Positions 1 to 29,285 of a stretch of 64,000 nucleotides of DNA are shown here, one piece after another. Position 1 is the first letter of the stretch. Each line of letters begins with the position of its first letter. The DNA is taken from assembly GCA_009746045.1 (NCBI GenBank), contig RPFO01000448.1:1397047-1461046 (forward strand), in the 5' to 3' direction. Both the position numbers and the translations under genes were made by a program. The notes below the pieces were generated by a model. The model had not been told where the DNA came from and did no database searches. It worked only from the letters and a program-made list of their open reading frames with translations. This DNA comes from Mesostigma viride (taxonomy: Eukaryota > Streptophyta > Mesostigmatophyceae > Mesostigmatales > Mesostigmataceae).

Positions 1-164
1 GGAGGGAGGAGGGAGGGAGGGAGGGAGGGGGAGGAGGGAGGGAGGGAGGGAGGGAGGGAGGGAGGGAGGGAGGGAGGGAGGGAGGGAGGGAGGAGGGAGG
101 GAGGGAGGGAGGGAGGGAGGAGGGAGGGAGGGAGGGGGAGGGAGGGGGAGGGAGGGAGGGAGGG
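1..164. repeat. (GGGA)n microsatellite
   Basis: Almost pure GGGA/GGA repeat with a few one-base interruptions, running off the left window edge. It is the reverse complement of the CCCT tract at 28474-28790. Confidence 0.95.
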
Positions 165-175
165 TTTAGCCACAT

Positions 176-1000
176 CGTGTTTTGTTCTTGGATTGATGAC
201 GCACCGCACGCAACGCTCGTGACCTGCACCCGCAGGCGAAAAAGAACAAACCACAATGATAGCATGGTTGTGAGTGACAATTGACGACATCACGCTACAA
301 GGAGCATGACGCAAAAGGGATTAAAAATCGGCATGAAAAACCTGGTGAAAAATAAGAGGGAGAGGGGGGGAGAGGGAGAGGGAGAGAGAGTCGTCGTTCA
401 GGAAGCCGTCATGACGCAAAATGGGATGAATACTCAACATGCCAGGTGAAAAAAAATTAGGAAAACCACGTACGTAAAATCCCGCAACTCACTCTTGTTG
501 GAGCTGATGCTGCTGTCGTTGTTGTTGTTGTCAGGCCCGTTGTTCTTGATTTAATGATGTAAGTGCTGCTCGTACGCAACGCTCGTGACCTGCACCCGCA
601 GGCGAAAAAGAACGAACCACAATGATAGTATTGTTGTGAGTGACAATTGACGACATCACGCTACAAGGAGCATGACGCAAAAGGGATTTAAAATCGGCAT
701 GAAAAACCTGGTGAAAAATAAGAGGGAGAGGGGGGGAGAGGGAGAGGGAGAGAGAGTCGTCGTTCAGGAAGCCGTCATGACGCAAAATGGGATGAATACT
801 CAACATGCCAGGTGAAAAAAAAAATAGAAAAACCACGTACGTAAAATCCCGCAACTCACTCTTGTTAAAGCTGATGCTGCTGTCGTTGTTGTTGTTGTCA
901 GGCCCGTTGTTCTTGATTTCCAAAGAAGAAAGCCGTGAAGCTGCTCGTACGCATTATGGGGGCTGCACCCGCAGGCGAAAAAGAACGTGGACCACAGTCG
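176..1000. repeat. 366-bp direct repeat, 2.2 copies
   Basis: A unit beginning near 176 recurs near 541 and, in part, near 902. The landmark GACCTGCACCCGCAGG occurs at 221 and 587, 366 bp apart, and a related CTGCACCCGCAGG occurs near 963. Each full unit includes a purine-rich GAGGGAGAGGGG stretch and a GTTGTTGTTGTCAGG stretch. No coding potential is convincing; the short frames through it are repeat products. Confidence 0.85.
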
Positions 1001-1091
1001 GTCACTGGACGTGCGGTGGCGGGCGTGGTGGGCGCATCCGGCGGTGCGCGCCTGCAAAACACCGCATCAATTACCTGGGCGGGCTGGGTGC

Positions 1092-1842
1092 GCACCTTCC
1101 AAAGTCCCTGGTGTGTGTCAGTGCAGCGTCGACATGGCATGCGTGGAGGATATGTGCGTACGTACGACGAATCATGTGAAACGACTGGTCCAACCTGAAA
1201 AATTTTAAATTTTTGCCGTGTCCAGTAACGGTCCTAGGTTGCACCCGCGGGACGTTCCGACAGCTGTACAGAAAAGATCACAAAGATACGCCGCGCAACG
1301 ACGCCTGTGCCCGGCAAATCATTTGTGAGCCCGGAACTGAACAGTCACTGCAAATGTCGAGTATTTATTGCTCCACCCCCACAAAAAAGCGTTCCGGACC
1401 TGTTCGAAGCGAAGAGCACTGACAGGGATCGGACCCGAGCCAGATTTGTGTGCGGACCATGATGGCTGGCCTCCCTCACTCCGCAACCTCACTCTGGACG
1501 CAGGTTCGAATCCTGTCAGTGCTATTCGCTTCGAACAGTTCCGGAACGCTTTTTTGGGGGGGGTGGAGCAATAGATTTTCGACGTGTGTAGTGACTGTTC
1601 AGTTCCCGACTCACATTTGCCGGGCACTGGCGTCATTCCGCGGCGTATCTTTCTGATCTATTCTGTACAGCTGCCGGAACGTCCCGCGGGTGCAACCTAG
1701 GACCGTTACTGGACACGGCAAAAATTTAAAATTTTTCAGGTTGGACCAGTCGTTTCACATGATTCGTCGTAGGTACGCAAATATCCTCCACGCATGCCAT
1801 GTCGACGCTGCACTGACACACACCAGGGACTTTGGAAGGTGC
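1092..1842. mobile_element. Fold-back (inverted repeat) element with tRNA-like core
   Basis: Two arms of about 330 bp, roughly 1092-1426 and 1512-1842, are near-perfect reverse complements around a centre at about 1468. Matching landmarks are ACCTTCCAAAGTCCCTGG in the left arm against its complement near 1825-1840, AAATTTTTGCCGTGTCC near 1205 against its complement near 1715, and TGCTCCACCCC near 1369 against GGGGTGGAGCA near 1562. There is no coding frame. This is the structure of a fold-back or MITE-type element, or of a palindromic duplication. I saw no convincing target duplication. Confidence 0.8.
1415..1523. other. tRNA-like arms in the fold-back core
   Basis: A perfect 12-bp stem (AGCACTGACAGG at 1415-1426 with CCTGTCAGTGCT at 1512-1523) encloses two T-arm-like motifs, one per strand: GGTTCGAATCC on plus (1503-1513) and GGGTCCGATCCC on minus (complement of about 1424-1435). 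The first is identical to the consensus box B/T-arm. A D-arm and anticodon arm with normal spacing are not visible and the 109-nt length is too long, so this is not called a tRNA gene. Confidence 0.35.
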
Positions 1843-1979
1843 CGTAAGAATTGTCTTGCGAAATGAAAGCTTAGCCGTATGCACTGTTCTGAAAAAATCT
1901 GATTTGTAAAAATGGAGAAAAAAAAAAAAAGGGAAAAAAACTAAAAAAAAAAATCCTCCCGAAAACTGACATGCCGCAA

Positions 1980-2310
1980 AAAGGATTCGACACGGCGACT
2001 GCCGGTCTCATCCAGGTATTGGAGTAGGGTGTAGATCCCCACCGGGGGTGTAGATCCCCCTGCTATTCGCTCGAACAGTTCTGGATGTATCATTCTACAT
2101 GCTATTGTACAATATATAGTGGTAACGGAGAATAAAAAATGAAGAGACGACAAAAATGCCTTTGCACCAATAGGAGTCGACACTGCGTGTTCAGACTCCA
2201 AGTATTCGGGCACCCACACCTGCCGGGGGAGTACATTGTAATGCTATTCACTAGAACAGTTCCGGATGTAGCGTTAGTGATGATGTTGTACAATATATTC
2301 CAATCACGTT
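1980..2310. repeat. Diverged copies of the fold-back inner segment
   Basis: The stretch GCTATTCGCTTCGAACAG near 1521 has relatives at about 2061 and 2243, each followed by GGATGTA and a TTGTACAATATAT block. Both are diverged and lack the long arms. They probably mark older members of the same family. Confidence 0.5.
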
Positions 2311-3465
2311 TGTCAGACACGTTGTACATGTATATTCCATCATGATCGCAGGATTAGTAACTACTGGGCTACAAATAGGCGCGAGATGGGAAGCGGCGCG
2401 GCGCGAATGCCAGTAGACATTTCCGCGATATTTTTAGGTCTGCTGCTAGAGCTAGATGTGCTCTACGCCCTGATACCGGACATCACTATGTTTCGACCAA
2501 GACTACAGGGACTAATTAACGGTTACAGTACAGGGGGTACCCAGGTCCACCGGGACGAAAGTGAATGTAAAATAATTACGAACATGCATATTCGAGGCTA
2601 TGGCGGTGCAGAAAACTGATTGGTGTAGGAGCATCGATGCATGGATTCGTTCCAAATTTTGTAGGCATTATTTGTGCGTTGTAAAGATGCTGTAGCCGCA
2701 GTCGCGCAACATTTACTGAGGTGCGCAATCATCTCGGTCTGGGTTTTACTGCGTCAACGCGTGTTTATTGTGACGGGAGTGACAATGAAGCTAGCACTTG
2801 TTATCGGCGGCTTTATAATTGAATATTTCGCATCGAGTAAATTTGTTACGATGTATTTCGAATATTTCATTAGTGTCGTGGGCCAGGAAAGTCTTGACGC
2901 ATCGGCCCTGTCGTCAGCTTGCTAGCTGTCCTTGAGCCTTTTTTTTTGCGGTTTCGACCTGGCGTAGTTTAGTGTCCCTGCGGTTACCGTCGACAAGATA
3001 AAGTCGTCGTATCACTCGGTAAGTAATCTCGGACTCATTGTTGAAGGTTTGGGATGTCAAATTTGCTTCGTTACTACTTTTCTGTAATTGTTTGTGGTGG
3101 TGGTTGCGCACAGCCATTACGGTCAGATTTTCATCAGTTTTGTGCATGATTGGCTGCGTCTGCACCAAATATACTAGAATAATGATTGATGTTACATGTA
3201 AATAAGTTCTATATGGTATCATGATGGTTTCTATAGCCTAAATCCTTAAGAATAGATGGTATCCTGGCCTGTTTTTGGTTAGCCTTTTAGCTTTGTTAGT
3301 ATGGCTGTTGTGCAGTCACCCCATCTGTCTTCATGTAACACCTGTGGAGGTCCCAGTGCCCTGCTTGCATTCAAAAGAAGGTCCATGAGTTGTCTCTGTG
3401 TCATTTCATCTCAGGCAAGCATATGGAGGTCATTTTTTATGTTGTGGATGCATGGGCTACGTAGA
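2311..3465. other. Unassigned stretch
   Basis: Only short, unrecognised frames occur here, such as a 102-codon minus frame at 2914-3222 and 70-80-codon plus frames at 2386 and 2674. None has a recognisable domain or splice-supported continuation. I see no RNA gene or named repeat. Confidence 0.5.
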
Positions 3466-3901
3466 TGCGGGTCCTGGCGCTGCATCGCTGGATTCCTGGA
3501 TGTTTTTAAGCAAGTTTGTATGTAATTAGGCTGGCTTGCTGCAGCGCGTGGCCCACAACCTGTCGGGAAGGTGTAATGCTTTTATTTCCATGCTTCTCTG
3601 AAATTTCTTTTGCTTTATAGACAGTTGTGTTCGAGGAAATTCACGCGGTCTTCCTAAGCAGCGGCATCATTTTCCCCAGACACTGACGAGCTGGCACCTG
3701 TCTCCTAAAGAGAGCGGCTCGTGCTTGTTAGAAAGGAGGCAGTGTGCATTTTGCGGGACACAATGCTTTGGTGGCACATGCGTCAGGTAGGCTGTTCCAA
3801 TGGTCTCTTCACCTTTCCCACTGAGTAAATGTTAGCATTTGTCATGCTAACCAGAGCAGCTAGCCACAGGTTGGCTGGATAAAAAGTCAGCTTATTTTCT
3901 C

Positions 3902-3909
3902 TTTATATA
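3902..3909 (-). promoter_or_regulatory. TATA-like box in left palindrome arm
   Basis: TATATAAA on the minus strand, mirrored at 16533-16540 in the other arm, so both point outward from the palindrome. A similar TATATAAAG stands at 17887. No transcript start or gene can be tied to it. Confidence 0.25.
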
Positions 3910-4124
3910 CTGCGTGTGTGGTCCTCCACGTGTCCGGCTTGTTGGGCATTTTGGAAGAGGGTTTATAATGTGTTGTTGGGTGGAACAACTTGGTAGTTGG
4001 CACAAAATCACACATTATTAGCCTGAGATAGGCATGACATATGCTGCTCAGGCGTGTCGTCCTACCAGCCTTGTTGTTAAGGGTAGACTCACAAGGCTGG
4101 CTGTGCCGATGGAGGGGTGGGGCG

Positions 4125-4530
4125 TGCTAGCCCCCCCCCACACCCACGCATGCATGCTAGCCCCCCACACACACCCACGCATGCATGCCAGCCCCCATAC
4201 ACACCCACGCATGCATGCCAGCCCCCCCCCACACTTACGCATGCATGCTAGCCCCCCACACACACCCACGCATGCATGCCAGCCCCCCCCCACACCCACG
4301 CATGCATGCCAGCCCCCCCCCACACTTACGCATGCATGCTAGCCCCCCACACACACCCACGCATGCATGCCAGCCCCCCCCAACACCCACGCATGCAGGC
4401 TAGCCCAACCCCACACCCACGCATGCATGCCAGCCCACCCCCACACCCACGCGTGCATGCCAGCCCACCCCCACACCCACGCATGCATGCCAGCCCACCC
4501 CCACACCCACGCGTGCATGCCAGCCCACCC
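4125..4530. repeat. 30-31 bp GC-rich tandem repeat, left arm
   Basis: About 13 units built from CACCCACGCATGCATGC plus CAGCCCCCC or TAGCCCCCC. ACGCATGCATGC variants include ACGCGTGCATGC. All frames stay open through the array, giving repetitive shadow peptides that should not be annotated. Confidence 0.95.
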
Positions 4531-4799
4531 CTAGCTTGAGCGTGCTTGTAAAGTTTTTGCATGGTTTATTAAAATGAGTGGAATATGTATTTATTGCATT
4601 AAATGTTAATTTTATCATGAATGAAAATGGTCAACATTGCCGAAGTGCCCCTAAATTGCTCAATATTGTGTGCTCAAGAATTCAATGAGGATTGTCATCA
4701 TGGAAACCCGCACAAATTCACGATTCCGGGCATGCATGTGAAAGTATCAAGAACAATTTTCAATTAAGAATGGTATCTCATTGTTCCAGGAATCAATAT

Positions 4800-6541
4800 G
4801 ACTCCATGTACGTAGACAAGCCATGATGACCCCATGGGAGCCTAAATCCTCATCATTAAATACATAAATGCCACCCATGTACGTAGACGGGCCATGATGA
4901 CACCAATGGAGCCTGAATCCTCATCATTAATTACATAAATGCCAACCATGTACATACACGGGCAATGATGACACCATGGGAGCCTGAATCCTCATCATTA
5001 AATACATAAATGCCAACCATGTACGTAGGCCAGCCATGATGACACTATGGGAGCCTGAATCCTCATCATTAATTTCATACATGCCAACAACACGTAGACG
5101 GGCCATAATGACACCACGGGAGCCTGAATCCTCATCATTTATTTTATGAGACATCCATGTACGTAGGCCAGCCATGATGACACCATGGGAGCCTGAATCC
5201 TCATCATTTTTTTTCTGAGACATCCATGTACGTAGGCCAGCCATGATGACACCATGGGAGCCTGAATCCTCATCATTAAATACATACATGCCATCCATGT
5301 ACGTAGACAGGCCATGATGACACCATGGGAGCCTGAATCCTCATCATTAATTACATAAATGCCAACCATGTACGTAGACGGGCCATGATGACACCATGGG
5401 AGCCTGAATCCTCATCATTTTTTTTATGAGACATCCATGTACGTAGGCCAGCCATGATGACACCATGGGAGCCTGAATCCTCGTCATTTTTTTTTCTTTG
5501 ACATCCATGTACGTAGACGGGCCATGATGACACCATGGGAGCCTGAATCCTCATCATTAATTACATACATGCCAACAATGTAGGTAGACAAGCCATGATG
5601 ACACCATGGGAGCCTGAATCCTCATCATTTTTTTAATGAGACATCCATGTACATACGTAGGCCAGCCATGATGACACCATGGGAGCCTGAATCCTCATCA
5701 TTTTTTTTTCTTTGACATCCATGTACGTAGGCCAGCCATTAATTAATTAATTAATTAGACTCGTGCTCCCGTTGGGGAGTCACGGAGCATTAACCCCGAT
5801 GAATGGATGGATGGGTGCAAACATGCCTACCGGTCTAATCTATCTACATTGGCTACATACTACATCTAGCAACATTCTAACTACATCATCTATCTAGGCA
5901 GCCGCACGCTGCCCTAGGGGGAGCTATCTAGCGTGCCTCCCGTGGGATTGCACACGCGGGCCAGCCATGATGACACCATGGGAGCCTGAATCCTCCTCAT
6001 TAATTACATAAATGCCAACCATGTAGGTAGACAAGCCATGATGACCCCATGGGAGCCTGAATCCTCATCATTAATTACATAAATGCCATCCATGTACGTA
6101 GACGGGCCATGATGACACCATGGGAGCCTGAATCCTCATCATTAATTACATAAATGCCATTCATGTACGTAGACGGGCCATGATGACACCATGGGAGCCT
6201 GAATCCTCATCATTAAAAAATTTCTTTGACATCCATGTACGTAGGCCAGCCATGATGACACCATGGGAGCCTGAATCCTCATCATTGATTACATACATGC
6301 CATCCATGTACGTAGACGGGCCATGATGACACCATGGGAGCCTGAATCCTCATCATTTACTATTCCTTGACATCCATGTACGTAGGCCAGCCATGGAGAC
6401 ACCATGGGAGCCTGAATCCTCCTCGTTAATTACATAAATGCCAACCATGTACGTAGACAAGCCATGATGACACCATGGGAGCCTGAATCCTCATCATTTA
6501 CTATTCCTTGACATCCATGTACGTAGACGGGCCATGGAGAC
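4800..6541 (-). repeat. 71-bp satellite, left (minus) block
   Basis: Tandem 70-71 bp monomers read on minus as AATGATGAGGATTCAGGCTC followed by CCATGGTGTCATCATGG and a TACGTACATGG segment. Spacers vary: GGCATTTATGTAATT, GTCAAGGAATAGTA, or GTCAAAGA with an A-run. Interrupted by the 219-bp element at 5740-5958 and ended by the LTR retrotransposon at 6542. Confidence 0.95.
5740..5958 (-). mobile_element. SINE-like retroelement with 10-bp target duplication
   Basis: A 219-bp insertion in the satellite. GGCCAGCCAT stands on both sides (5730-5739 and 5959-5968) as a likely target duplication, although the satellite monomer itself contains this string. Read on minus, it ends with a hairpin (CTCCCCAACGGGAG, complement of 5766-5779), then a GAGTCTAATTAATTAA-type tail. 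The same 3' end occurs at about 47950-47998. No protein frame and no clear box A/B is visible, so the SINE call rests on size, tail and duplication. Confidence 0.6.
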
Positions 6542-7284
6542 TGTCAGCCGTAGTGGGCCAAGGCAGTCTCGGCACTAGTTTTTGGCTGTGAGTTAGCCTA
6601 ATTAGTGGGACGACACAACTGTACTTATCCAGACTATTTAATTCGTGCTGCGGATTTTTAGTGCTGCGTTTCAGGTCCGAGATACTGTACGGATCATACT
6701 TTTGAGACCCGTTGTAATTGTTTTTGGGTCCGGACTATATGTGGAGTGCTACAAAATATTGTACCGGTGCTGGTGTGGCACCGACGGTACATCTTGGATT
6801 GCTTATGCTGCCACCGTACGTTATGCAGCAGGATCCGCGCTTCGCGCAGATCTTAGGGACGTTGGTACTGTTTCTGGTTTTTCACCTATGTGAGTGATTT
6901 TGTCTAAGTCCGAGCTTGTGGCGCATGTCTGAGAAAGAAATCATAAGAATGGTAGAGTATCAGACGCGGCGCAATTTTTCAGTCCTTTGTGCATGTATGC
7001 ATGCACATGTGTGCTTGAATGCATCCGACCACCTAGAACGCGCCGCCACGTATCATACGGCTGTGATCTGTTTGTGTCGTGACCTGTCCTTTGGGCGGCG
7101 TAGCATTTAGCCTAGGCACTGCTCCTTGGCAACTCACGCTCATGCCTTATTTTCACACGTTTTTCACCATAAAAGACGTGAAATGTGGGCGTCGGCATTT
7201 GTGATTTAATGCTTGTCTTTTAAGCGTTATTTAATAACCAAGATCAATTTCCTCCGATCACCTTGGTTCAGTGCAAATGCAACA
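6542..7284 (+). repeat. 5' LTR
   Basis: 743 bp, TG...CA termini, same length as and apparently identical to the 3' LTR. Short frames within it (6645-6893 and 6916-7110) recur exactly in the other LTR and are not genes. Confidence 0.93.
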
Positions 7285-7296
7285 TGGTATCGAGCC
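7285..7296 (+). promoter_or_regulatory. Primer binding site
   Basis: TGGTATCGAGCC directly follows the 5' LTR. It resembles the TGGTATC-type site complementary to the 3' end of initiator Met tRNA used by many Ty1/copia elements. Confidence 0.75.
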
Positions 7297-7654
7297 AGAA
7301 AGTGACAGGCAAAATCTGGTGAAGCCAAGCTCCATCCACTTCACCTTGTCCAAGACTGTGAGGGGGACGCCCCACATTTACGTTGCAGTCTTTGGATGCG
7401 CCTTTTTCGCTTCTTCTTGTTGAAATCGTGCCACCCAAGTTGTGGGAGGTGTTCTTCTTGAGGGAACTGCAGTGTTCTGCTGAAAGTGTAAGACCCTTGG
7501 CATAAGGGCCACTTGAGTATTGGGAAGTTTGTCTTTATTCTTGAAGCATCCTTCCTGTGGAGACGTTTTTTGAGATAAAACGTTTTTCTGTTCTTCCTGG
7601 GCAGTAAAGAATCTGGTTTTTTCTGCAACATTTTTAGTGGGGAGAAACTTGTCT

Positions 7655-7933
7655 ATGCAAAGGGATTTGACCACTGCTTTGTGGTGTCCTAGAGCTGCTG
7701 GAGATCCTATTGTTATTCCGAATCCTGATTACAACACCGGCCATCAGGGGGTATCCCCTTCTCCAAACAGAGCATCTGTGGAAGTACAGTATAGGGGTAC
7801 CTGTTTTAACTGGGAGATTGTGTGCACCCCTAGAACTCTGCGCCGTTTGGCGGAGTTTTTAGATCAACTCATCCCTGAGGAGCCCACAGTTGTTCCTGAG
7901 AATCCTACAGTGAGACCTACCGGCGAGGAGTGA
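7655..7933 (+). CDS. Short frame upstream of gag
   Basis: A 92-codon ATG frame between the primer binding site and gag, ending TGA at 7931-7933, only two bases before the gag ATG at 7936 (TGACAATG) and in another frame. I recognise no domain. The C-terminal part is rich in Pro, Glu and Val and looks like linker. It may be a real second product, a leader frame that controls gag by reinitiation, or a remnant of a gag N-terminus. No promoter evidence separates these options. Confidence 0.4.
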   Translation: MQRDLTTALWCPRAAGDPIVIPNPDYNTGHQGVSPSPNRASVEVQYRGTCFNWEIVCTPRTLRRLAEFLDQLIPEEPTVVPENPTVRPTGEE

Positions 7934-7935
7934 CA

Positions 7936-8928
7936 ATGGCAGCCAACGCAGCAGTAGCAGCAGCTACCAGCATCGGGGCCTTCATCAGTGCTGCTGATAA
8001 GTTACCAAAGTTTGATGGTGTGGATCCCCGTAAGTGGGAGGCAACGAATGTCCGCTTTACCCGTTTGCTGAAAGCCTTTAACCTACATGGGGTAATCACG
8101 GGTGAGATCGAGGACGATGGCAAGGACGCGGCAGTTCAGGCCGCGATGGGCATCTTTTTAGATGGCCTGGCTCTTATGCTGGTCAAGAATGTGACCAGTG
8201 CAAAACAGGCATGGGAGCTCCTGATGAAGAGGTTTGGTCACCACCGTACGACTGAGACCTATCAGGATGAACTGCGTCGCAAGCTTCGTTCCAAGGAGCC
8301 TGCACCAGTGGACAAGCCCCTCAATGAGTTTCTGGCAGCGAGGGAGCTGACGCGCGAGGAGTACGTCCAGGAGCTGGACGGGCGTTTTGACGACCAGGAC
8401 ATGGTCCTCTCTACTCATGATCTCATGCCCGCTGCGATCCGGGTGATGATGGCAGCACAGGATGTACGCATCACCACACTCACGTGGGATGAGTACAAGG
8501 CACGTGTGCTGAGGATTGAGGACAGCATCAAGGCCCAGGCGGCCATCATGCGCAACACAGGCGGGGGGAAGCAGGGAGACACCAGGGACACCAGTTCTCT
8601 GGCTGGCGTCTTTGCTACCATGGCGATGGAGGACGGGAAGAAGGGTGGCTGTTTTCACTGCGGCAAACCGGGCCACAAGGTCGCAAACTGTTTCAAGAAG
8701 CACCCTCACCTTCGCAAGGGGGGGAAGGACGGAGAGGCCAAGGCGCAGGCCAACTTGACGTCCACCCCTGCTCAGCAGGAGGCACTGGACGTGCCCCCTG
8801 GTTTTGTTTTCCACACTGGGGTGGAGGCCCCGCTGACCAACTGTAGTATCTGTTCAGTGGTGCGTTGCTCCAGGGGCGCCCTGGCCACCATACTTTTTCG
8901 AGTCATTGTTTCCAGCTTGTCCCACTAA
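7936..8928 (+). CDS. gag: Retrotransposon Gag with CCHC zinc knuckle
   Basis: 330 aa. Residues about 20-110 have the Copia Gag/UBN2-type pattern: KFDGVDPRKWEA, then LLKAF, then an AKQAWELLMKRF block. Around residues 239-252 is a CX2CX4HX4C knuckle (CFHCGKPGHKVANC), expected to bind RNA during particle assembly. ATG at 7936 is chosen because it is the first in-frame ATG; the frame can be extended only to a GTG at 7930. The last ~30 residues do not resemble a protease, and the stop (8926-8928) overlaps the polypurine tract, so the pol region has been cleanly lost. The protein would coat element RNA in cytoplasmic particles supplied with enzymes in trans. Confidence 0.88.
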   Translation: MAANAAVAAATSIGAFISAADKLPKFDGVDPRKWEATNVRFTRLLKAFNLHGVITGEIEDDGKDAAVQAAMGIFLDGLALMLVKNVTSAKQAWELLMKRFGHHRTTETYQDELRRKLRSKEPAPVDKPLNEFLAARELTREEYVQELDGRFDDQDMVLSTHDLMPAAIRVMMAAQDVRITTLTWDEYKARVLRIEDSIKAQAAIMRNTGGGKQGDTRDTSSLAGVFATMAMEDGKKGGCFHCGKPGHKVANCFKKHPHLRKGGKDGEAKAQANLTSTPAQQEALDVPPGFVFHTGVEAPLTNCSICSVVRCSRGALATILFRVIVSSLSH

Positions 8929-8934
8929 GGGGGG
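8927..8934 (+). promoter_or_regulatory. Polypurine tract
   Basis: AAGGGGGG immediately before the 3' LTR, the usual position for plus-strand priming. It overlaps the gag stop codon. Confidence 0.8.
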
Positions 8935-9677
8935 TGTCAGCCGTAGTGGGCCAAGGCAGTCTCGGCACTAGTTTTTGGCTGTGAGTTAGCCTAATTAGTG
9001 GGACGACACAACTGTACTTATCCAGACTATTTAATTCGTGCTGCGGATTTTTAGTGCTGCGTTTCAGGTCCGAGATACTGTACGGATCATACTTTTGAGA
9101 CCCGTTGTAATTGTTTTTGGGTCCGGACTATATGTGGAGTGCTACAAAATATTGTACCGGTGCTGGTGTGGCACCGACGGTACATCTTGGATTGCTTATG
9201 CTGCCACCGTACGTTATGCAGCAGGATCCGCGCTTCGCGCAGATCTTAGGGACGTTGGTACTGTTTCTGGTTTTTCACCTATGTGAGTGATTTTGTCTAA
9301 GTCCGAGCTTGTGGCGCATGTCTGAGAAAGAAATCATAAGAATGGTAGAGTATCAGACGCGGCGCAATTTTTCAGTCCTTTGTGCATGTATGCATGCACA
9401 TGTGTGCTTGAATGCATCCGACCACCTAGAACGCGCCGCCACGTATCATACGGCTGTGATCTGTTTGTGTCGTGACCTGTCCTTTGGGCGGCGTAGCATT
9501 TAGCCTAGGCACTGCTCCTTGGCAACTCACGCTCATGCCTTATTTTCACACGTTTTTCACCATAAAAGACGTGAAATGTGGGCGTCGGCATTTGTGATTT
9601 AATGCTTGTCTTTTAAGCGTTATTTAATAACCAAGATCAATTTCCTCCGATCACCTTGGTTCAGTGCAAATGCAACA
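8935..9677 (+). repeat. 3' LTR
   Basis: 743 bp copy of the 5' LTR, followed by the GAGAC target duplication (9678-9682) and the resumed satellite. Confidence 0.93.
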
Positions 9678-12600
9678 GAGACACCAATGGAGCCTGAATC
9701 CTCATCATTAATTACATGGATGGCATTTATGTATTTAATGATGAGGATTCAGGCTCCTATGGTGTCATCATGGCTTGTCTACCTACATGGTTGGCATTTA
9801 TGTAACCTGAATCCTCTCATTAAAAAAATGAAGAGGATTCAGGCTCCATTGGTGTCATCATGGCTGGCCTACGTACATGGATGTCAAGGAATAGTAAATG
9901 ATGAGGATTCAGGCTCCCATGGTGTCATCATGGCTTGTCTACGTACATGGTTGGCATTTATGTAATTAATGAGGAGGATTCAGGCTCCCATGGTGTCTCC
10001 ATGGCTGGCCTACGTACATGGATGGCATTTATGTAATTAATGAGGAGGATTTAGGCTCCCATGGTGTCATCATCGCCCGTCTACGTACATGGATGGCATT
10101 TATGTAATTAACGAGGAGGATTCAGGCTCCCATGGTGTCATCATGGCCCGTCTACGTACATGGATGTCAAGGAATAGTAAATGATGAGGATTCAGGCTCC
10201 CATGGTGTCTCCATGGCCCGTCTACGTACATGAATGGCAAGTATGTAATTAATGATGAGGATTCAGGCTCCCATGGTGTCATCATGGCCTGTCTACGTAC
10301 ATGGATGGCATGTATGTATTTAATGATGAGGATTCAGGCTCCCATGGTGTCTCCATGGCTGGCCTACGTACATGGATGGCATTTATGTAATTAATGAGGA
10401 GGATTTAGGCTCCCATGGTGTCATCAATGCCCGTCTACGTACATGGTTGGCATTTATGTAATTAATGATGAGGATTCAGGCTCCCATGGTGTCATCATGG
10501 CCCGTCTACGTACATGGATGTCAAGGAATAGTAAATGATGAGGATTCAGGCTCCCATGGTGTCATCATGGCTTGTCTACGTACATGGTTAACATTTCTGT
10601 AATTAATGAGGAGGATTCAGGCTCCCATGGTGTCTCCATGGCTGGCCTACGTACATGGATGTCAAGGAATAGTAAATGATGAGGATTCAGGCTCCCATGG
10701 TGTCATCATGGCCTGTCTACGTACATGGATGGCATGTATGTAATTAATGATGAGGATTCAGGCCTGTGGTGTCATCATGGCTTGTCTACGTACATGGTTG
10801 GCATTTATGTAATTAATGAGGAGGATTCAGGCTCCCATGGTGTCATCATGGCTTGTCTACGTACATGGTTGGCATTTATGTAATTAATGATGAGGATTCA
10901 GGCTCCCATGGTGTCTCCATGGCTGGCCTACGTACATGAATGGCATTTATGTAATTAATGATGAGGATTCAGGCTCCCATGGTGTCATCATGGCCCGTCT
11001 ACGTACATGGATGGCATTTATGTAATTAATGATGAGGATTCAGGCTCCCATGGGGTCATCATGGCTTGTCTACCTACATGGCTGGCATTTATGTAATTAA
11101 TGAGGAGGATTCAGGCTCCCATGGTGTCTCCATGGCTGGCCTACGTACATGGATGTCAAGGAATAGTAAATGATGAGGATTCAGGCTCCCATGGTGTCAT
11201 CATGGCCCGTCTACGTACATGGATGGCATTTATGTAATTATTGATGAGGATTCAGGCTCCCATGGTGTCATCATGGCCCGTGTACGTACATGGATGGCAT
11301 TTATGTAATTAATGATGAGGATTCAGGCTCCCATGGTGTCATCATGGCCCGTGTACGTACATGAATGGCATTCATGTAATTAATGATGAGGATTCAGGCT
11401 CCCATGGTGTCATCATGGCCCGTCTACGTACATGGATGTCAAAGAAAAAAAATTGATGAGGATTCAGGCTCCCATGGTGTCATCATGGCTGGCCTACGTA
11501 CATGGATGTCTCATAAAAAAAATGATGAGGATTCAGGCTCCCATGGTGTCATCATGGCTTGTCTACGTACATGGTTGGCATTTATGTAACCTGAATCCTC
11601 TCATAAAAAAAATGAAGAGGATTCAGGCTCCATTGGTGTCATCATGGCTGGCCTACGTACATGGATGTCAAGGAATAGTAAATGATGAGGATTCAGGCTC
11701 CCATGGTGTCATCATGGCTTGTCTACGTACATGGATGGCATGTATGTAATTAATGATGAGGATTCAGGCTCCATTGGTGTCATCATGGCTGGCCTACGTA
11801 TGTACATGGATGTCAAAGAAAAAAAAATGATGAGGATTCAGGCTCCCATGGTGTCATCATGGCCCGTCTACGTACATGGTTGGCATTTATGTAATTATTG
11901 ATGAGGATTCAGGCTCCCATGGTGTCATCATGGCCCGTGTACGTACATGGATGGCATTTATGTAATTAATGATGAGGATTCAGGCTCCCATGGTGTCATC
12001 ATGGCCCGTGTACGTACATGAATGGCATTCATGTAATTAATGATGAGGATTCAGGCTCCCATGGTGTCATCATGGCCCGTCTACGTACATGGATGTCAAA
12101 GAAAAAAAATTGATGAGGATTCAGGCTCCCATGGTGTCATCATGGCTGGCCTACGTACATGGATGTCTCATAAAAAAAATGATGAGGATTCAGGCTCCCA
12201 TGGTGTCATCATGGCTTGTCTACGTACATGGTTGGCATTTATGTAACCTGAATCCTCTCATAAAAAAAATGAAGAGGATTCAGGCTCCATTGGTGTCATC
12301 ATGGCTGGCCTACGTACATGGATGTCAAGGAATAGTAAATGATGAGGATTCAGGCTCCCATGGTGTCATCATGGCTTGTCTACGTACATGGATGGCATGT
12401 ATGTAATTAATGATGAGGATTCAGGCTCCATTGGTGTCATCATGGCTGGCCTACGTATGTACATGGATGTCAAAGAAAAAAAATGATGAGGATTCAGGCT
12501 CCCATGGTGTCATCATGGCCCGTCTACGTACATGGTTGGCATTTATGTAATTATTGATGAGGATTCAGGCTCCCATGGAGCATGTATGTGCCGTGTACGT

Positions 12601-15555
12601 ACATGGATGGCATTTATGTAATTAATGATGAGGATTCAGGCTCCCATGGTGTCATCATGGCCCGTGTACGTACATGAATGGCATTTATGTAATTAATGAT
12701 GAGGATTCAGGCTCCCATGCATGGTGTCATCATGGCCCGTCTACGTACATGGATGTCAAGGAATAGTAAATGATGAGGATTCAGGCTCCCATGGTGTCAT
12801 CATGGCCCGTGTACGTACATGGATGGCGATTTTGTAATTAATGATGAGGATTCAGGCTCCCATGGTGTCATCATTGCCCGTGTACGTACATGGATGGCAT
12901 TTTTGTATATAATGATGAGGATTCAGGCTCCCATGGTGTCATCATGGCCCGTGTACGTACATGGATGGCATTTATGTAATTAATGATGAGGATTCAGGCT
13001 CCCATGGTGTCATCATGGCCCGTGTACGTACATGAATGGCATTTATGTAATTAATGATGAGGATTCAGGCTCCCATTGTGTCATCATGGCCCGTCTACGT
13101 ACATGGATGTCAAGGAATAGTAAATGATGAGGATTCAGGCTCCCATGGTGTCATCATGGCCCGTCTACGTACATGGATGGCGATTTTGTAATTAATGATG
13201 AGGATTTAGGCTCCCATGGTGTCATCATGGCCCGTCTACGTACATGGATGGCATTTATGTAAGTAATGATGAGGATTCAGGCTCCCATGGTGTCATCATG
13301 GCTTGTCTACCTACATGGTTGGCATTTATGTAACCTGAATCCTCTCATAAAAAAAATGAAGAGGATTCAGGCTCCATTGGTGTCATCATGGCCCGTCTAC
13401 GTACATGGATGTCAAGGAATAGTAAATGATGAGGATTCAGGCTCCCATGGTGTCATCATGGCTTGTCTACGTACATGGATGGCATGTATGTAATTAATGA
13501 TGAGGATTCAGGCTCCATTGGTGTCATCATGGCTGGCCTACGTATGTACATGGATGTCAAAGAAAAAAAAATGATGAGGATTCAGGCTCCCATGGTGTCA
13601 TCATTGCCCGTGTATGTACATGGTTGGCATTTATGTAATTAATGATGAGGATTCAGGCTCCATTGGTGTCATCATTGCCCGTGTATGTACATGGTTGGCA
13701 TTTATGTATGTAATTAATGATGAGGATTCAGGCTCCATTGGTGTCATCATGGCTGGCCTACGTATGTACATGGATGTCAAAGAAAAAAAAATGATGAGGA
13801 TTCAGGCTCCCATGGTGTCATCATGGCCCGTCTACGTACATGGATGTCAAGGAATAGTAAATGATGAGGATTCAGGCTCCCATGGTGTCAGATGTCATGG
13901 CCTGTCTACGTACATGGATGGCATGTATGTAATTAATGATGAGGATTCAGGCTCCATTGGTGTCATCATGGCTGGCCTACGTATGTACATGGATGTCAAA
14001 GAAAAAAAAATGATGAGGATTCAGGCTCCCATGGTGTCATCATGGCCCGTCTACGTACATGGATGTCAAGGAATAGTAAATGATGAGGATTCAGGCTCCC
14101 ATGGTGTCATCATGGCCTGTCTACGTACATGGATGGCATGTATGTATTTAATGATGAGGATTCAGGCTCCCATGGTGTCATCATGGCTGGCCTACGTACA
14201 TACATGGATGTCTCAGAAAAAAAATGATGAGGATTCAGGCTCCCATGGTGTCATCATGGCTGGCCTACGTACATGGATGTCAAAGAAAAAAAATGATGAG
14301 GATTCAGGCTCCCGTGGTGTCATTATGGCCCGTCTACGTGTTGTTGGCATGTATGAAATTAATGATGAGGATTCAGGCTCCCATAGTGTCATCATGGCTG
14401 GCCTACGTACATGGTTGGCATTTATGTAATTAATGATGAGGATTCAGGCTCCCATGGTGTCATCATTGCCCGTGTATGTACATGGTTGGCATTTATGTAA
14501 TTAATGATGAGGATTCAGGCTCCATTGGTGTCATCATGGCCCGTCTACGTACATGGACCGTGGCATTTATGTATTTAATGATGAGGATTCAGGCTCCCAT
14601 GGGGTCATTGATGATCATGGCATTTATGTATGTAATTAATGATGAGGATTCAGGCTCCATTGGTGTCATCATGGCTGGCCTACGTATGTACATGGATGTC
14701 AAAGAAAAAAAAATGATGAGGATTCAGGCTCCCATGGTGTCATCATGGCCCGTCTACGTACATGGATGTCAAGGAATAGTAAATGATGAGGATTCAGGCT
14801 CCCATGGTGTCAGATGTCATGGCCTGTCTACGTACATGGATGGCATGTATGTAATTAATGATGAGGATTCAGGCTCCATTGGTGTCATCATGGCTGGCCT
14901 ACGTATGTACATGGATGTCAAAGAAAAAAAAATGATGAGGATTCAGGCTCCCATGGTGTCATCATGGCCCGTCTACGTACATGGATGTCAAGGAATAGTA
15001 AATGATGAGGATTCAGGCTCCCATGGTGTCATCATGGCCTGTCTACGTACATGGATGGCATGTATGTATTTAATGATGAGGATTCAGGCTCCCATGGTGT
15101 CATCATGGCTGGCCTACGTACATGGATGTCTCAGAAAAAAAATGATGAGGATTCAGGCTCCCATGGTGTCATCATGGCTGGCCTACGTACATGGATGTCA
15201 AAGAAAAAAAAATGATCAGGATTCAGGCTCCCGTGGTGTCATTATGGCCCGTCTACGTGTTGTTGGCATGTATGAAATTAATGATGAGGATTCAGGCTCC
15301 CACAGTGTCATCATGGCTGGCCTACGTACATGGTTGGCATTTATGTAATTAATGATGAGGATTCAGGCTCCCATGGTGTCATCATTGCCCGTGTATGTAC
15401 ATGGTTGGCATTTATGTAATTAATGATGAGGATTCAGGCTCCATTGGTGTCATCATGGCCCGTCTACGTACATGGGTGGCATTTATGTATTTAATGATGA
15501 GGATTCAGGCTCCCATGGGGTCATCATGGCTTGTCTACGTACATGGAGTCATATT
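9678..15555 (+). repeat. 71-bp satellite, right block with orientation switch and higher-order units
   Basis: The first ~40 bp (9678-9717) still read in the left-block (minus) orientation; from about 9721 monomers run in plus orientation for 5.8 kb. Perfectly spaced monomers are 71 bp (for example 12911 to 12982); variants with GTCAAGGAATAGTA are about 70 bp. Higher-order structure is present: a block at about 11240-11890 repeats 657 bp later, and a block at about 13614-14470 repeats about 860 bp later. A local mini-inversion (CCTGAATCCTCTCAT next to AGAGGATTCAGG) recurs near 9805, 11590, 12246 and 13333. Long open frames here are repeat shadows. Confidence 0.95.
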
Positions 15556-15817
15556 GATTCATGGAACAATGAGATACCATTCTTAATTGAAAATTGTTCT
15601 TGATACTTTCACATGCATGCCCGGAATCGTGAATTTGTGCGGGTTTCCATGATGACAATCCTCATTGAATTCTTGAGCACACAATATTGAGCAATTTAGG
15701 GGCACTTCGGCAATGTTGACCATTTTCATTCATGATAAAATTAACATTTAATGCAATAAATACATATTCCACTCATTTTAATAAACCATGCAAAAACTTT
15801 ACAAGCACGCTCAAGCT

Positions 15818-16315
15818 AGGGGTGGGCTGGCATGCACGCGTGGGTGTGGGGGTGGGCTGGCATGCATGCGTGGGTGTGGGGGGGGCTAGCCTGCATGCGT
15901 GGGTGTGTGGGGGGGCTGGCATGCATGCGTGGGTGTGTGTGGGGGGCTAGCATGCATGCGTAAGTGTGGGGGGGGCTGGCATGCATGCGTGGGTGTGTAT
16001 GGGGGCTGGCATGCATGCGTGGGTGTGTGTGGGGGGCTAGCATGCATGCGTGGGTGTGTGGGGGGCTGTCATGCATGCGTGGGTGTGGGGGGGGCTGGCA
16101 TGAATGCGTGGGTGTGGGGGGGGCTAGCATGCATGCGTGGGTGTGGGGGTGGGCTAGCATGCATGCGTGGGTGTGAGTGTGGGCTAGCATGCATGCGTGG
16201 GTGTGGGGGGGGCTAGCATGCATGCGTGGGTGTGGGGGGCCGGGGCCGGGGCTAGCATGCATGCGTGGGTGTGGGGGTGGGCTAGCATGCATGCGTGGGT
16301 GTGGGGGGGGGCTAG
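15818..16315. repeat. 30-31 bp GC-rich tandem repeat, right arm
   Basis: About 16 units of TGGCATGCATGCGTGGGTGT plus a G-run, the mirror of the left-arm array but longer and with a GGGGCCGGGGCCGGGGC variant at about 16240. Confidence 0.95.
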
Positions 16316-16532
16316 CACGCCCCACCCCTCCATCGGCACAGCCAGCCTTGTGAGTCTACCCTTAACAACAAGGCTGGTAGGACGACACGCCTGAGCAGCA
16401 TATGTCATGCCTATCTCAGGCTAATAATGTGTGATTTTGTGCCAACAACCAAGTTGTTCCACCCAACAACACATTATAAACCCTCTTCCAAAATGCCCAA
16501 CAAGCCGGACACGTGGAGGACCACACACGCAG

Positions 16533-16540
16533 TATATAAA
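16533..16540 (+). promoter_or_regulatory. TATA-like box in right palindrome arm
   Basis: TATATAAA, mirror of 3902-3909, pointing out of the element towards 17 kb. No supported gene follows closely. Confidence 0.25.
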
Positions 16541-16979
16541 GAGAAAATAAGCTGACTTTTTATCCAGCCAACCTGTGGCTAGCTGCTCTGGTTAGCATGA
16601 CAAATGCTAACATTTACTCAGTGGGAAAGGTGAAGAGACCATTGGAACAGCCTACCTGACGCATGTGCCACCAAAGCATTGTGTCCCGCAAAATGCACAC
16701 TGCCTCCTTTCTAACAAGCACGAGCCGCTCTCTTTAGGAGACAGGTGCCAGCTCGTCAGTGTCTGGGGAAAATGATGCCGCTGCTTAGGAAGACCGCGTG
16801 AATTTCCTCGAACACAACTGTCTATAAAGCAAAAGAAATTTCAGAGAAGCATGGAAATAAAAGCATTACACCTTCCCGACAGGTTGCGGGCCACGCGCTG
16901 CAGAAAGCCAGCCACGTCACAGACGATTAACTAGCTAAAAGACACCCAGGAATCCAGCGATGCAGCGCCAGGACCCGCA

Positions 16980-18600
16980 ACTTTCTGGCTGCATCTGGCC
17001 GGAAAGAAGGCAAAAAGCTTACGCTCAACGAGGTAAGAAAGCAGGAAAACGCAAGCTTAAGACGTTTAACACAAGAACGTACCATAACGGGCATTTATTC
17101 GTGCCCAGGCGCACAAGAAAGTCCACCCTTTCATGGAGTGGTTGGGCAGTACGCATCGCGCAGGGCTAATGTTATCTTACCGCAAAATGACGGGAAAGGT
17201 AAAGATAGCAGCGGGAATTTTTACGGCTTTAGAAACATCATTAAACTAGCTTTCCTTACGACCATCAAAACTGGCAACAATCGACAATCAACCCGGCAGG
17301 CATCCAATATACTTTATTCATCCCGACAGAAATTCAGGCCGGACCCCCCCTGCCGATGGCAAAGAAAAAAAGCCCGCGACATTATAGATCGCAACCATCC
17401 CGCCATAAATTAGAATCAGTAACTAATTTTCTCCAACAATCGAGCATTTCTGCTTTCCGCGTGCCAGATTTGTCACGTTTCGTCTAAAGGCAGTCGCCAT
17501 GGCCCCTACCGCAAGGGGTGCGCGCACCATGCCGACATAGCTTTTGGGCCTCAATTTGCACCGAAATTTGGTCCGTACCGTCCAGCTCAGTCGGATTATG
17601 TATGTGGATCGGCCGTGTTGGTTGCATACGCAGGTATATTAATTCTTGCATTCGCCCCGGACCTTCCCCAGGACAGGTCAGGATATAACAATAATTCTTG
17701 CATTCGCCCCCGCCCTTTCCTATGGCCTGGTCAGGTTTGGGCGCGACGCCACTAGCGCGGCGCCCGCGACAGAGTGGCCAGGCTCGAGCACGTTTTCTGG
17801 ATCCCAAGCACCGGATTGGACACTGTCCGAGGACTGGACAGGAATTGGCTGACCAATCGGATGCTTGCTCGTCGTCTCCAAAAACATATATAAAGAGCCA
17901 AATCGCGCGAACTACGCAATGATCCTTTAAGCAGCGTTACTCTGCCGAAATGTCAACCTAGGCCGGTCAAGTGACGCCGAGGTGTTCACCGATAGTTCAG
18001 GTCAGCCACAGCGCGCCTTCGAATGTAGGCACGGTCGCATTTTTTTTTAGGAAATGTAGAATTGTTGTCGACCAGCTACCAACGCCCGACCGGACCCATA
18101 AACGGAAACATCAAGGCGATGTGATGTAGGTGTGTCTGATATTCATTAATACACAGCATCGTGAATATAATATATAATAATATTATATAATATACTATAA
18201 TAAAATATAATTTAATTTTATGTTAATTTTAATGTTATTTCATATAACATAATATAATAATATATATATAATATAATATAATATTATATAAATAGTAATA
18301 AAAAATTAAAATGTAAAAGAAAAATATCTACCTTATTGGTTTAATGTTCCTTTCCAGTTCAGCATAAGTACACTCTTGAGTGTGTGCAATGTTTGGTTAT
18401 ACGCCATTGTCTTAAAATAGCAACCAATGTAAACCTCCGTCCTAACCACATTTGGATACAATAAAGACATTGATGCCTGACACATAGCATTCATTGCTTG
18501 AAATACCATGCATATTTTGTGTCAATGTTCTGCAGACCACAGCTTCAAGTGGGCATACTTCGCTTTCCTCAATATAATGGCGACATGGCATTTGGTGAAA
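16980..18600. other. Unassigned stretch with small duplication and AT-rich tract
   Basis: No convincing gene. About 17637-17745 contains a tandem duplication headed by AATTCTTGCATTCGCCCC. A TATATAAAG motif is at 17887. About 18150-18330 is strongly AT-rich (TATAATATAATA-like). Confidence 0.5.
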
Positions 18601-19190: not shown

Positions 19191-19454
19191 TGATGCCCAT
19201 CGTTTTCGTCGTGTCTTTAATGGTGATTATTTATCATTACTCATCCTCAGGGCTTTCGGTGCCGCGGGATTAAGAGGCGAAAAAAATCAGCTGCCGTCTG
19301 ACCAAAGTCTGATGGCGCAATCGGGGCGGGGGGCCGTTTCCGACGGTTCGCGTCCCTTGTCCAATGACGACCGGGAGCCTGCACTTGCGGTCCCTGGAGC
19401 GACAAGTACATCGAGAACAAGGGGTACAAAATTGCCAATGACATCTTTCCTATC

Positions 19455-22400
19455 ATGGCGGAACGCGTGAAAGCAAACAACCACAGGACGCCAGAGATGA
19501 GCGCGGAGGTTCTGTCTTGCGCAGCTTCAAGACTAAATGCCATGGTGGCGGAGAGCAACGGCATTAAGAAGAGGAAGAACTGTGACGACGGGCTTCCTGA
19601 AAGTTGGGCGGAATCTCTTCGGGATACCATCAAGAAGGCTTTTGGCGACTTGGGAACATCTGAGAAGGATCGTGGGCTTAGGTGGGCCTTGTGTGGACTT
19701 GTTACGAAGGCAATGGAGGGCGTCCCGGACAGGATTGTGGAGCGCGCGTTCGGGATTGACAGGCGCTTTGTCGCAACTGTTCGGGGTCACAGGGATGGAA
19801 TGGAAGAAGGGGAGGACGACCTTTTGATGAGTGCGCCAGAGAGGAGAGAGGAAAACGAGCTTCCGACGGAAGTCATTGCCCTGATACAAGCGTGCTGGAG
19901 GGATGATAACTTGACGCGGGCGTCTCCGAACATGAAGGATGTTCATTGTGAATGGACAAGAAAGGATTACAAACATACACTAGCGTTTTCGGAGGGTGCG
20001 CGCTACTATACTGTCTCCAAGTCGAAGATTTACGAAGTTTATTTCCCGCCATCCGGAGTTGAAGCCACCGCGGCGGATGGACAGTAGGGAGGGGGGGGGG
20101 GGAGGGAGAGGAGGGTGTGAGGGGGGGAAATCAGGTGATTTTGGAGACGGAGGCAGGGATGTCAATGCTACGCACGAATCAGAAGAGCACAGTTCATGTG
20201 GGATACACTACTTTTTGCAAGCATATGCCCGCATGCGTCAAGGGGCGGTGGAAAATGCGGAACTTGTGCGCATGCCAGCACCACACTACCATGCAGTCCA
20301 TGGTTGGGGGGTTGGCCAAATTTCGTGCAACTTTTCATGCCAGATGCGAGTGCGGACCTGAATGCCACGCGTGCGATCATGGTAGCCAGCTCGACGTGGG
20401 GTCGTCCGTGCCCACATGTTCCATTTTCAAAGCCACTCACACGACAGAGTGGGTGAACAAGTTTACTTGTGAGGTGGAGGGGATGAGGGAGGGGGGAGGT
20501 TCGAGGTCGTCTGTGGGGTCGTCGCGGCCGCAGGTTCAGCCTTTTCAGGGCGAACTTGAGGATCTGCCCATGCATGGGAGGGTGCTGGACGACGAGGAAG
20601 GGGTGCCCGATCATGACCTGGGCGAGGAGTTGGGGGTTTGCTCGATCCGGCGTAAGGCTTGTGTGTTGGGCACTTGCCGGGCTCCCAAGTGTGGAATTCG
20701 GAACTTCATGTTATGCGAACGGGAGGAGGCTTCCAACCACCTGATTTCATGGACCAGATACGAGATGCAGGATGTGCCGCCGGGTGCGGTTCTTGGGCCA
20801 GAGGTAATTTTTAGTGGAGTGGTTGCGCCCCAAGGCGTTTCTTTTGCAATGTTTCCTGAGGTTCTTGGGCCAGAGGTAATTTTTAGTGGAGTGGTTGCGC
20901 CCCAAGGCGTTTCTTTTTCAATTTTTCCTGAGGTCCTGTCTTTTTTCTTCCTACAGGTCATTGGTGGGTCGAAGTTGATGTCTTTTCTGTATGTGCACAT
21001 TGCGCATATGCAGGACGACTGTGACGAGATCGCAAAGGCTGGTGGGCAGCGATTGACGCAAGTCGACGTCAAGTCCACACCAACGGAGCTAAAGGAGGCG
21101 ATTGTGGACAAGTGGCCGGACTTCATCCAGCATTGCTTCAACGCGTGGTGGCAAGCGGACGCCTCCAAGGAATGTCTCTCAAGGATGCGGGTGGGGGACC
21201 TTGTATGCCACACAGATTACGCCGAGAACTACCAGTCTTACACCTATCACAATCTCCAAGCACAGTATTGGCATCCAGTCACATTCGTCCTTATGCCCTG
21301 GATCGTGCGCTACTTGGATCCAGCGTCGGGAAAGGTCGTGAGAAGGGAGTTTCACTTCATCGGACAGGGCGGAATGAAAAGGGACGGGCGGGCCCTCCGT
21401 TTTGCTATCCTCAAAATCCTGGCGACACTACGGTCAGAAGGGGTAGAGGTGAAGCGCTTCATTGGGTGGTCGGACAATTGCTCCATGCAGTTCAAGTCAA
21501 GGAATGTGATCGCGGAAGTGGCCCGGCTGCTGACGGAGGATCCGCACCTGGAGTCATTTGAGTGGAATTACTTTGGGGAGCAGCACGGAAAGGGGGAGGT
21601 GGATGGAGCTGGTGGGACTGTGAAGTGCATGTTGAGGAGGTGGCACATCAGGGAAGAGAACCAGGACAAACAGACGGCCGCCCAGTTGGTGGAGAATCTG
21701 GCGTCGGGGGCGGTGGGCGGGACCACAACGACCAGGCGTAACTTCTTCGAGTTCCCCGAGGTAATTAAGTGTACAGTCCTCGTTCAGGGAATAGTTACGC
21801 CGGCCGTCGTTTCTAGGGCGTTCTTGGAGTCCTGGCGATCAGGAGTGCTTAATAAAACACAACTAGCTCGATGGTCTCGTAACTTCAACTTTCCCTTGTG
21901 CAAATCTTGTCTTCGACGCGCAGGTGCTTCCTTACAGCCCAGGGCGCGGCGAAATCAAAGGAGTGAAGAAGGCGCACTGGTGGCGCATGGACAAGTCGAA
22001 TGTGACGCGCTTAATGCTGCGCCAGTATTCCTGCTATTGTGGCGGTGCGTGCGCCGAGGAAAGGTGGTGGGATTGTCGAAAGGAGTGGACCGACATGGAC
22101 GGCTGGAATGTGGGAGGTGCTCGGATGAAGCTCCACAAACTGGGGGAGCCAGTGCAAAGGAACCCAAACGGACAAGGGGGGCACGCAGGGACGCGACTGA
22201 ACAGACTACAGGCAGAGAGGACGATGATGGGAAGGAGACTGAAGCTGCGAGACATTTTTGCCGTCGAGTCCTACTCTGGTGATGAGTCCCACGATCCAGA
22301 TCATCCATATTGGCTAGCGGAAGTCTTGCAGGAGCCTTATCAGGTGGCCGCTACTTTCGTGAGGCGAGTGGCCGACAGAAACGGCAAGGTCGATAGGGAG

Positions 22401-22655
22401 TTGTTCCGTAAGGGACAATGGGTGGTGGGGGTGCGCTACTGGGACAGATTTCCGGGTATGGCGACGATGTTCAAAATGGACGCCGATGCCCAACCTGAAC
22501 AGCCAAACTTGGTCAATTGCTACCTGTGCATGGACGCGGGGTTCGAACACACCATTGTTGTCAACCCAGCTAACAATCGCCAGGCCATCTTGACCATTCC
22601 GACAGACGTCGAGAAACGGCTCACGAACTTGGCCAAGAAGAGACCTGTTCAGTAG
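19455..22655 (+). CDS. DDE/RNase H-fold transposase-like protein, at least three exons
   Basis: Putative exon blocks are 19455-about 20083, about 20117-20803, 20957-21760 and 21924-22655, with introns 20804-20956 and 21761-21923 (both GAG|GTAATT...CAG|GT). How the frame crosses the G-rich stretch at 20084-20132 is unresolved. The middle part has a Cys-rich block (CACQHH, then CECGPECHAC) and spaced acidic motifs HTDYAENYQ (Asp at 21214), WSDNCSMQFKS (Asp at 21473) and HGKGEVDGAGGTVK (about 21584-21625), the pattern of a DDE-type domain found in many animal proteins of transposon origin. The C-terminal 120 residues (HPYWLAEVLQEPYQV onward) look like a small barrel such as Tudor/chromo. Coding-like sequence also extends upstream in frame to a stop at 19365, so the true start may lie on an earlier exon. 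No flanking inverted repeats were found. Confidence 0.65.
20789..20932 (+). repeat. 72-bp tandem duplication across the first intron
   Basis: Two copies (20789-20860, 20861-20932) that differ at about two bases. Each contains CCAGAGGTAATTTTTAGTGG, that is, a full copy of the splice donor. 72 bp keeps the frame, and the 153-nt intron is itself open and divisible by three, so retention would not break translation. Confidence 0.9.

Positions 22656-29205: not shown

Positions 29206-29285
<80 letters not shown>

Follow-up and report, generated by a model that had tools for sequence, protein, structure and literature searches.

Tetris, a foldback transposon of Drosophila virilis, has layered inverted repeats of up to 1,735 bp as its ends; no coding copy is reported to have been found and homogenisation within the element is suggested (PMC4079207). 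Teratorn of medaka is presented as a fusion of a piggyBac transposon with a herpesvirus, 41-182 kb long and bounded by 18-bp terminal inverted repeats (TIRs) (PMC6431247). The Sola2 DNA transposons are characterised by short TIRs and by AT-rich target-site duplications (TSDs) of 4 bp (PMC3627910). Here we analyse a stretch of 64,000 nucleotides from Mesostigma viride (contig RPFO01000448.1, positions 1,397,047 to 1,461,046), called the window below, in which a palindrome with nested repeat layers occupies positions 3466-16979. The mobile unit at this locus is a giant TIR DNA transposon, which measures about 34-37 kb in its two most fully read copies, and the palindrome is very probably an inherited internal module of it.

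As in Tetris (PMC4079207), the inverted repeats are made of unique domains and a tandem-repeat domain of variable copy number, with arrays that expand inside the element. Unlike in Tetris, the layered repeats are situated in the interior and are far longer, and short TIRs and genes are present as separate parts. With Teratorn (PMC6431247), the element shares the organisation of a giant TIR DNA transposon carrying paired long internal inverted repeats; it differs in that its TSD is not a fixed TTAA, its internal repeats are filled with satellite and the frames scanned contained no recognisable viral gene. The 4-bp TSD and the short TIRs recall Sola2 at the level of description; the TSDs found here are mixed in sequence, with an AT fraction of 0.55 over 16 cases, where AT-rich ones are described for Sola2 (PMC3627910). 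No Sola model was among the matches of a Pfam scan. No prior description of the element was found in open-licence full texts, where its TIR word occurred in 0 papers. We class it as a giant TIR DNA transposon that contains a satellite palindrome, its superfamily being unassigned.

The limits of the element were identified by aligning three right and two left ends and extending two copies. Homology stops at a common 27-bp inverted terminus, GGGCGTCCCCAACATCTACTGCTCCAA, and the TIRs are perfect in the window element and in a second copy on contig C1. The window element measures 37,184 bp, from a left end situated outside the window, 13,866 bases ahead of window position 1 (G000:C1215:1383181), to a right end at 23318, the window holding its right-hand part (1-23318, + strand). 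Inside the element, the 5,000 bases directly to the left of the window read N, which is either an assembly gap or masked sequence. The C1 copy measures 34,173 bp including 115 N. The right TIR of the window element (23292-23318, - strand) is followed by the TSD GGCA at 23319-23322, whose partner stands directly before the left end, outside the window, and the C1 copy is bordered by AGAT on both sides.

To these two cases we added 20 end pairs, hand-picked among the first 100 listed places per end, with both members on one contig and in matching orientation; the sample does not include at least three other candidates, whose ends are 64-82 kb from each other. An exact 4-bp TSD was present in 14 of the 20, hence in 16 of 22 when the window and C1 copies are included. 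The duplicated sequences vary (GGCA, TCCC and TGAG among others) with a bias towards G at position 2 (9/16) and C at position 3 (10/16). The 14 TSD-bearing pairs span 11.1 to 77.6 kb, any internal N included; the C113 element, for instance, holds at least 2.2 kb of N. Exact element ends number 266 on the left and 271 on the right in the genome. Reversed-control words gave zero matches for the left-end, right-end, axis and arm words. All copy counts given here are lower bounds or numbers of exact words, several of them drawn from the first 100 places listed.

The layers of the palindrome were mapped by a self-BLAST of the window and by alignment. From the outside inwards, each arm consists of a unique layer A, an array B of 30-bp tandem repeats, a unique layer C and a 71-bp satellite array D. 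The left arm, which reads outward to the left (- strand), comprises A at 3466-4124, B at 4125-4531, C at 4532-4802 (271 bp) and D at 4803-9719, the latter split by two later insertions. On the right arm (+ strand), D extends over 9720-15547, C over 15548-15818, B over 15819-16317, and A begins at 16318, runs to 16979 and is prolonged by an outer 553 bp up to 17532. Between the inner part of A (3535-4124 on the left) and its mirror there are 2 differences over about 590 bp, and the two C layers are identical at 270 of 271 positions. Arrays B and D keep the same order and orientation, mirrored, in both arms, and the two D arms begin, at their outer base, with the same series of exact monomer types, 6-44-x-40-x-35. 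Satellite D flips orientation at about 9720, within an axis segment (9697-9752, + strand). Self-comparison and alignment thus agree with the initial annotation, made from the letters of the sequence alone, on the mirrored order of unique and repeated layers and on an axis lying inside the satellite, and the mirrored layers bear out the inverted duplication that it proposed as one of two origins. Its picture of a 13.5-kb palindrome has to be qualified: the mirrored layers are real, but the arms are very unequal, left D amounting to about 1.6 kb without its inserts against 5.8 kb for right D, and both a long terminal repeat (LTR) element and an insert of 221 bp interrupt the left arm. Elsewhere in the genome, copies have arms that go 553 bp beyond the point corresponding to 16979, with 93% identity; the window has kept this outer stretch on the right arm and lost it on the left.

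A search of the genome for other copies, as the initial annotation had proposed, revealed that they share flanks beyond the palindrome and that the mobile unit is larger. A 596-bp piece of the arm gave 40 scored matches at about 100% identity, from 927 candidates. Stretches of eight copies were fetched and exhibit the same layers on every arm covered, both arms being covered in C1757, C568, C1b and C792 (the last cut at the contig start). The homology runs outward past the palindrome borders and defines two flank types, R (window 16980 onward) and S (left side of the window), which have the 553 bp at 93% identity in common. The S-type flank of the window (1-2316, - strand, outward being leftward) is homologous to other S-type arms from base 980 outward; its first 979 bp are replaced by about 1.15 kb (2317-3465), a replacement found elsewhere, among 13 arms compared, only in C1757. 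Both flanks of C1757 match the window at 99.6-99.8% and the LTR insertion is missing there, so that C1757 is an allele or a recent duplicate. Within the S-type flank, positions 1092-1842 form a second and shorter inverted repeat (about 750 bp, with a self-inverse identity of about 88%), which other copies also have in their S-type arms.

In addition to the element ends, exact copies were counted in the genome for a 35-bp axis word (135) and for an arm word (439). In 7 of 8 aligned copies, the orientation junction has the same sequence over more than 50 bp. The first 100 arm words listed yielded 28 mirror pairs and 44 single arms, and the exact axis sits between the arms in 27 of the 28 pairs. 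Pairing these arm words with the right ends and axes listed on the same contigs, an arm word was found 5.5-9 kb inward, in the expected orientation, at 43 of 53 right ends, and the orientation of the axis is that of the element in 21 of 22 testable cases. Flanks were typed with 95 of these arm words, the S-flank words listed (100) and the R-junction words as far as contig C465 (45): 22 of the 28 mirror pairs are R/S, 6 are S/unclassified, and none is R/R or S/S. The 135 exact junctions, together with R and S flanks wherever both could be classified, argue that the palindrome arose once and moves with the element. The satellite arms range from 0.8 to more than 10 kb among copies; the idea that the satellite is always shorter on the S side was discarded, since it exceeds 10 kb in C224. 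The C113 element was likewise considered as a palindrome-free ancestor and dismissed because the missing part reads N. In two contigs, axis words stand about 15 kb apart, in opposite orientation in C411 (6770 + and 21129 -) and in the same orientation in C1106 (3697807 - and 3713262 -), which suggests palindromes duplicated again.

Four observations weigh against a palindrome regularly transmitted inside this transposon. Six of the 22 end pairs lack a TSD, the arm word is missing at the expected distance from 10 of the 53 right ends, and the C1a copy has a different axis junction. Moreover, the exact axis words are only about half as many as the element ends, from which it follows that many copies carry a changed, lost or unresolved palindrome.

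The arms have relatives outside the element. Layer A and the outer 553 bp are also found in copies of a dispersed repeat, termed X: the S-flank word has 438 matches and, among the first 100 listed, only 36 adjoin an exact arm word. Repeat X is about 1.3 kb or longer (one copy at L084:243-1532), with 995 candidates for its upstream part. One copy was read whole, and for ten more the sequence of the two ends was retrieved. In 9 of the 11 copies the right end is at TTAA, as that of a TTAA-target transposon would be, whereas 3 of 10 differ from the rest at a point where these extend further upstream, which would be in keeping with 5' truncation of a retroposon. Array B does not follow A in the copy read whole, solo X copies carrying A and the flank only. 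In a three-way alignment of an S arm, an R arm and a solo X, the S and R arms are the same over the inner 570 columns and share 11 differences from X; beyond these columns, S agrees with X against R at 34 sites, the reverse holds at 2, and S and R agree with each other at 5. Columns 0-577 contain zero fixed S/R differences in a set of 9 S and 5 R arms. Identical inner arms give way sharply to outer arms diverged by 7%, which points to copying from arm to arm. It must be set against this that the comparison involves a single solo copy of X and a small number of R arms, and that the window and C1757 rows are not independent.

From these patterns we infer that each arm likely contains the end of a repeat X, and that the inner arm (inner A, B, C and D) was likely copied from one side to the other across the X homology, either by fold-back synthesis or by arm-to-arm gene conversion. 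The outer parts of the arms would retain an older divergence, while the satellite arrays would change length independently and freely.

The palindrome is located between an outward-reading candidate for a DDE-like transposase and an outward-reading gene with a MYND finger. On the right, the candidate transposase (19368-22655, + strand) is composed of open frames 19368-20087, 20063-22282 and 21867-22655, which are probably exons of one gene. A genome search with its presumed core exon (20957-21757) turned up 689 candidates, with 144 scored matches at about 100% identity. The succession of motifs DYAEN, SDNCSMQFK and HGKGEVDG is what we take to be a DDE-type transposase core, and the order of strands and helices in a predicted structure of the core would fit an RNase H fold. 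Several results tell against this assignment: no tool matched the motif order, the candidate has no Pfam match, the single-sequence AlphaFold model of the core is poor (predicted local distance difference test, pLDDT, of 42), a Foldseek search of the core against the PDB gave a best E-value of 2.4e-3 with nothing below 0.001, and the best E-value of a PDB sequence search was 0.38. A search of viral contigs returned no match. On the left, frames also read outward, and in the C1 copy one of them contains a MYND zinc finger (E-value 2.5e-7, 31.1 bits for a cut-off of 22.7); the counterpart of this region in the window element reads N. The other left frames scanned had no match above cut-off. The left flank also holds long open frames on the opposite strand, which count against the proposed arrangement and make the left gene limits uncertain. 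The product of the right-hand gene would act on the 27-bp TIRs to bring about movement, and the palindrome would ride along as cargo or as a control region.

A control function was considered in the light of the TATA motifs. The word TATATAAAGAG occurs exactly three times in the window, always directed outward: at 3899-3909 (-) in the left layer A, at 16533-16543 (+) in the right one and at 17887-17897 (+), upstream of the transposase-like gene. Its mean count in 100 shuffles was 0.00. The outward-mirrored TATA motifs already remarked upon in the initial annotation are thus present in both arms and have a third outward companion. In both arms of the C1 copy CACGTG lies directly upstream of the word, the whole C1 element containing six CACGTG. 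The arms may therefore act as identical outward promoters for the divergent genes, with arm-to-arm copying keeping them matched, a reading of the sequence to which we give somewhat less than an even chance. Counting against it, a solo X copy also has the TATA word, with CATGTG in place of CACGTG, and the word may thus be a mere part of X.

About equally likely is a neutral history, in which satellite and repeat debris was by chance duplicated in inverted orientation and has persisted, as a passenger, only because it sits inside a successful element. The wide range of arm lengths and the many ends lacking an exact axis, which imply that no fixed form seems required, are in line with such a history, as is the fact that the TATA word belongs to repeat X too. 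A neutral origin fits less well with the same axis in more than 100 copies and with a unique inner arm that is almost invariant, although this invariance could also come from recent amplification alone. A bolder version of the promoter proposal, which strikes us as rather unlikely, is that the element would represent an undescribed superfamily with a self-homogenising satellite palindrome, whose matched outward control regions would switch the transposase and the MYND protein together, the satellites serving as a regulator particular to each copy.

The palindrome could also be a replication or enhancer region between the divergent genes. Palindromic viral origins such as herpesvirus oriL have a comparable layout, and the position between outward genes, together with dense short palindromes and tandem repeats, would suit such a role; no replication protein was however recognised in the frames scanned, and we regard this explanation as distinctly improbable.

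Less probable still is that the palindrome is itself a fold-back transposon of the Foldback, Galileo or Tetris kind, which once inserted into the larger element and has since multiplied along with it. This was the other origin offered by the initial annotation, and it would account for long inverted repeats containing tandem repeats, as portrayed for Tetris (PMC4079207), and for arm material dispersed elsewhere as X, with its right ends at TTAA. The borders do not behave accordingly: no TSD was found at the outer borders of the palindrome, where a perfect palindrome of 12 bp immediately precedes the point at which the sequence shared by the arms stops; one word of 10 bp common to both flanks lies away from the borders. 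None of the 28 mirror pairs has flanks that are of the same type or both unclassified, and the dispersed X copies represent the outer layer only. The TIRs and 4-bp TSDs of the mobile unit are situated far outside the palindrome, and a fold-back element is not supported. The outer 35 bp of the palindrome were examined as a possible transposon TIR and ruled out, since homology continues outward in other copies.

Large near-perfect palindromes are hard to assemble and the element contains N stretches as read from C1215 and C113, but the same asymmetric junction recurs 135 times exactly, on separate contigs and with differing satellite lengths, so that an artefactual inverted join has a negligible probability and the palindrome is almost certainly real. 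These recurrences give an indirect answer to the initial annotation's condition that the join near 9720 be supported. Two other identities were discarded. A ribosomal DNA spacer was ruled out by an Rfam scan of the window and 7 loci at the gathering threshold, which gave 0 matches. Maverick/Polinton elements and endogenous DNA viruses have 6-bp TSDs and DNA polymerase, capsid and packaging genes; here the TSD is 4 bp, and no such domain was detected in the frames scanned with Pfam and PHROGs, which do not comprise every exon.

Both insertions in the left arm are located in satellite D. The LTR retrotransposon (6542-9677, + strand, 3.1 kb) has two 743-bp LTRs that are 100% identical and is flanked by the TSD GAGAC (6537-6541 and 9678-9682). 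With C1757 showing an empty site at this place, it is a very recent insertion into the palindrome. Its sole open reading frame, of 342 amino acids, is gag-like, and the zinc-knuckle match of this frame (18.3 bits) falls under the Pfam cut-off of 20.8. The 221-bp insert (5740-5960) starts with (TTAA)n and has GGCCAGCCAT on both sides; no full second copy of it was found within the window. Beyond the element, exon-like frames at 36071-36535 (-) and 38424-38915 (+) match glycine cleavage H-protein and HSP33 and are apparently host genes. Positions 28478-29911 form a 1.4-kb array, mostly of CTCA tetranucleotides (362 copies), one of many simple-repeat tracts in the window.

By a very rough estimate, which multiplies about 270 ends of each kind by about 35 kb and assumes full-length copies, the family would make up about 2% of a 440-Mb genome. 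The transposase candidate, matching no Pfam family, may help to place an unassigned group of transposons. The sharp boundary between inner and outer arms, repeated in many recent copies, renders arm-to-arm copying measurable in mobile palindromes. Satellites and large palindromes, both of which are linked to chromosome instability, are usually studied apart; in M. viride, a DNA transposon builds and spreads the two together.

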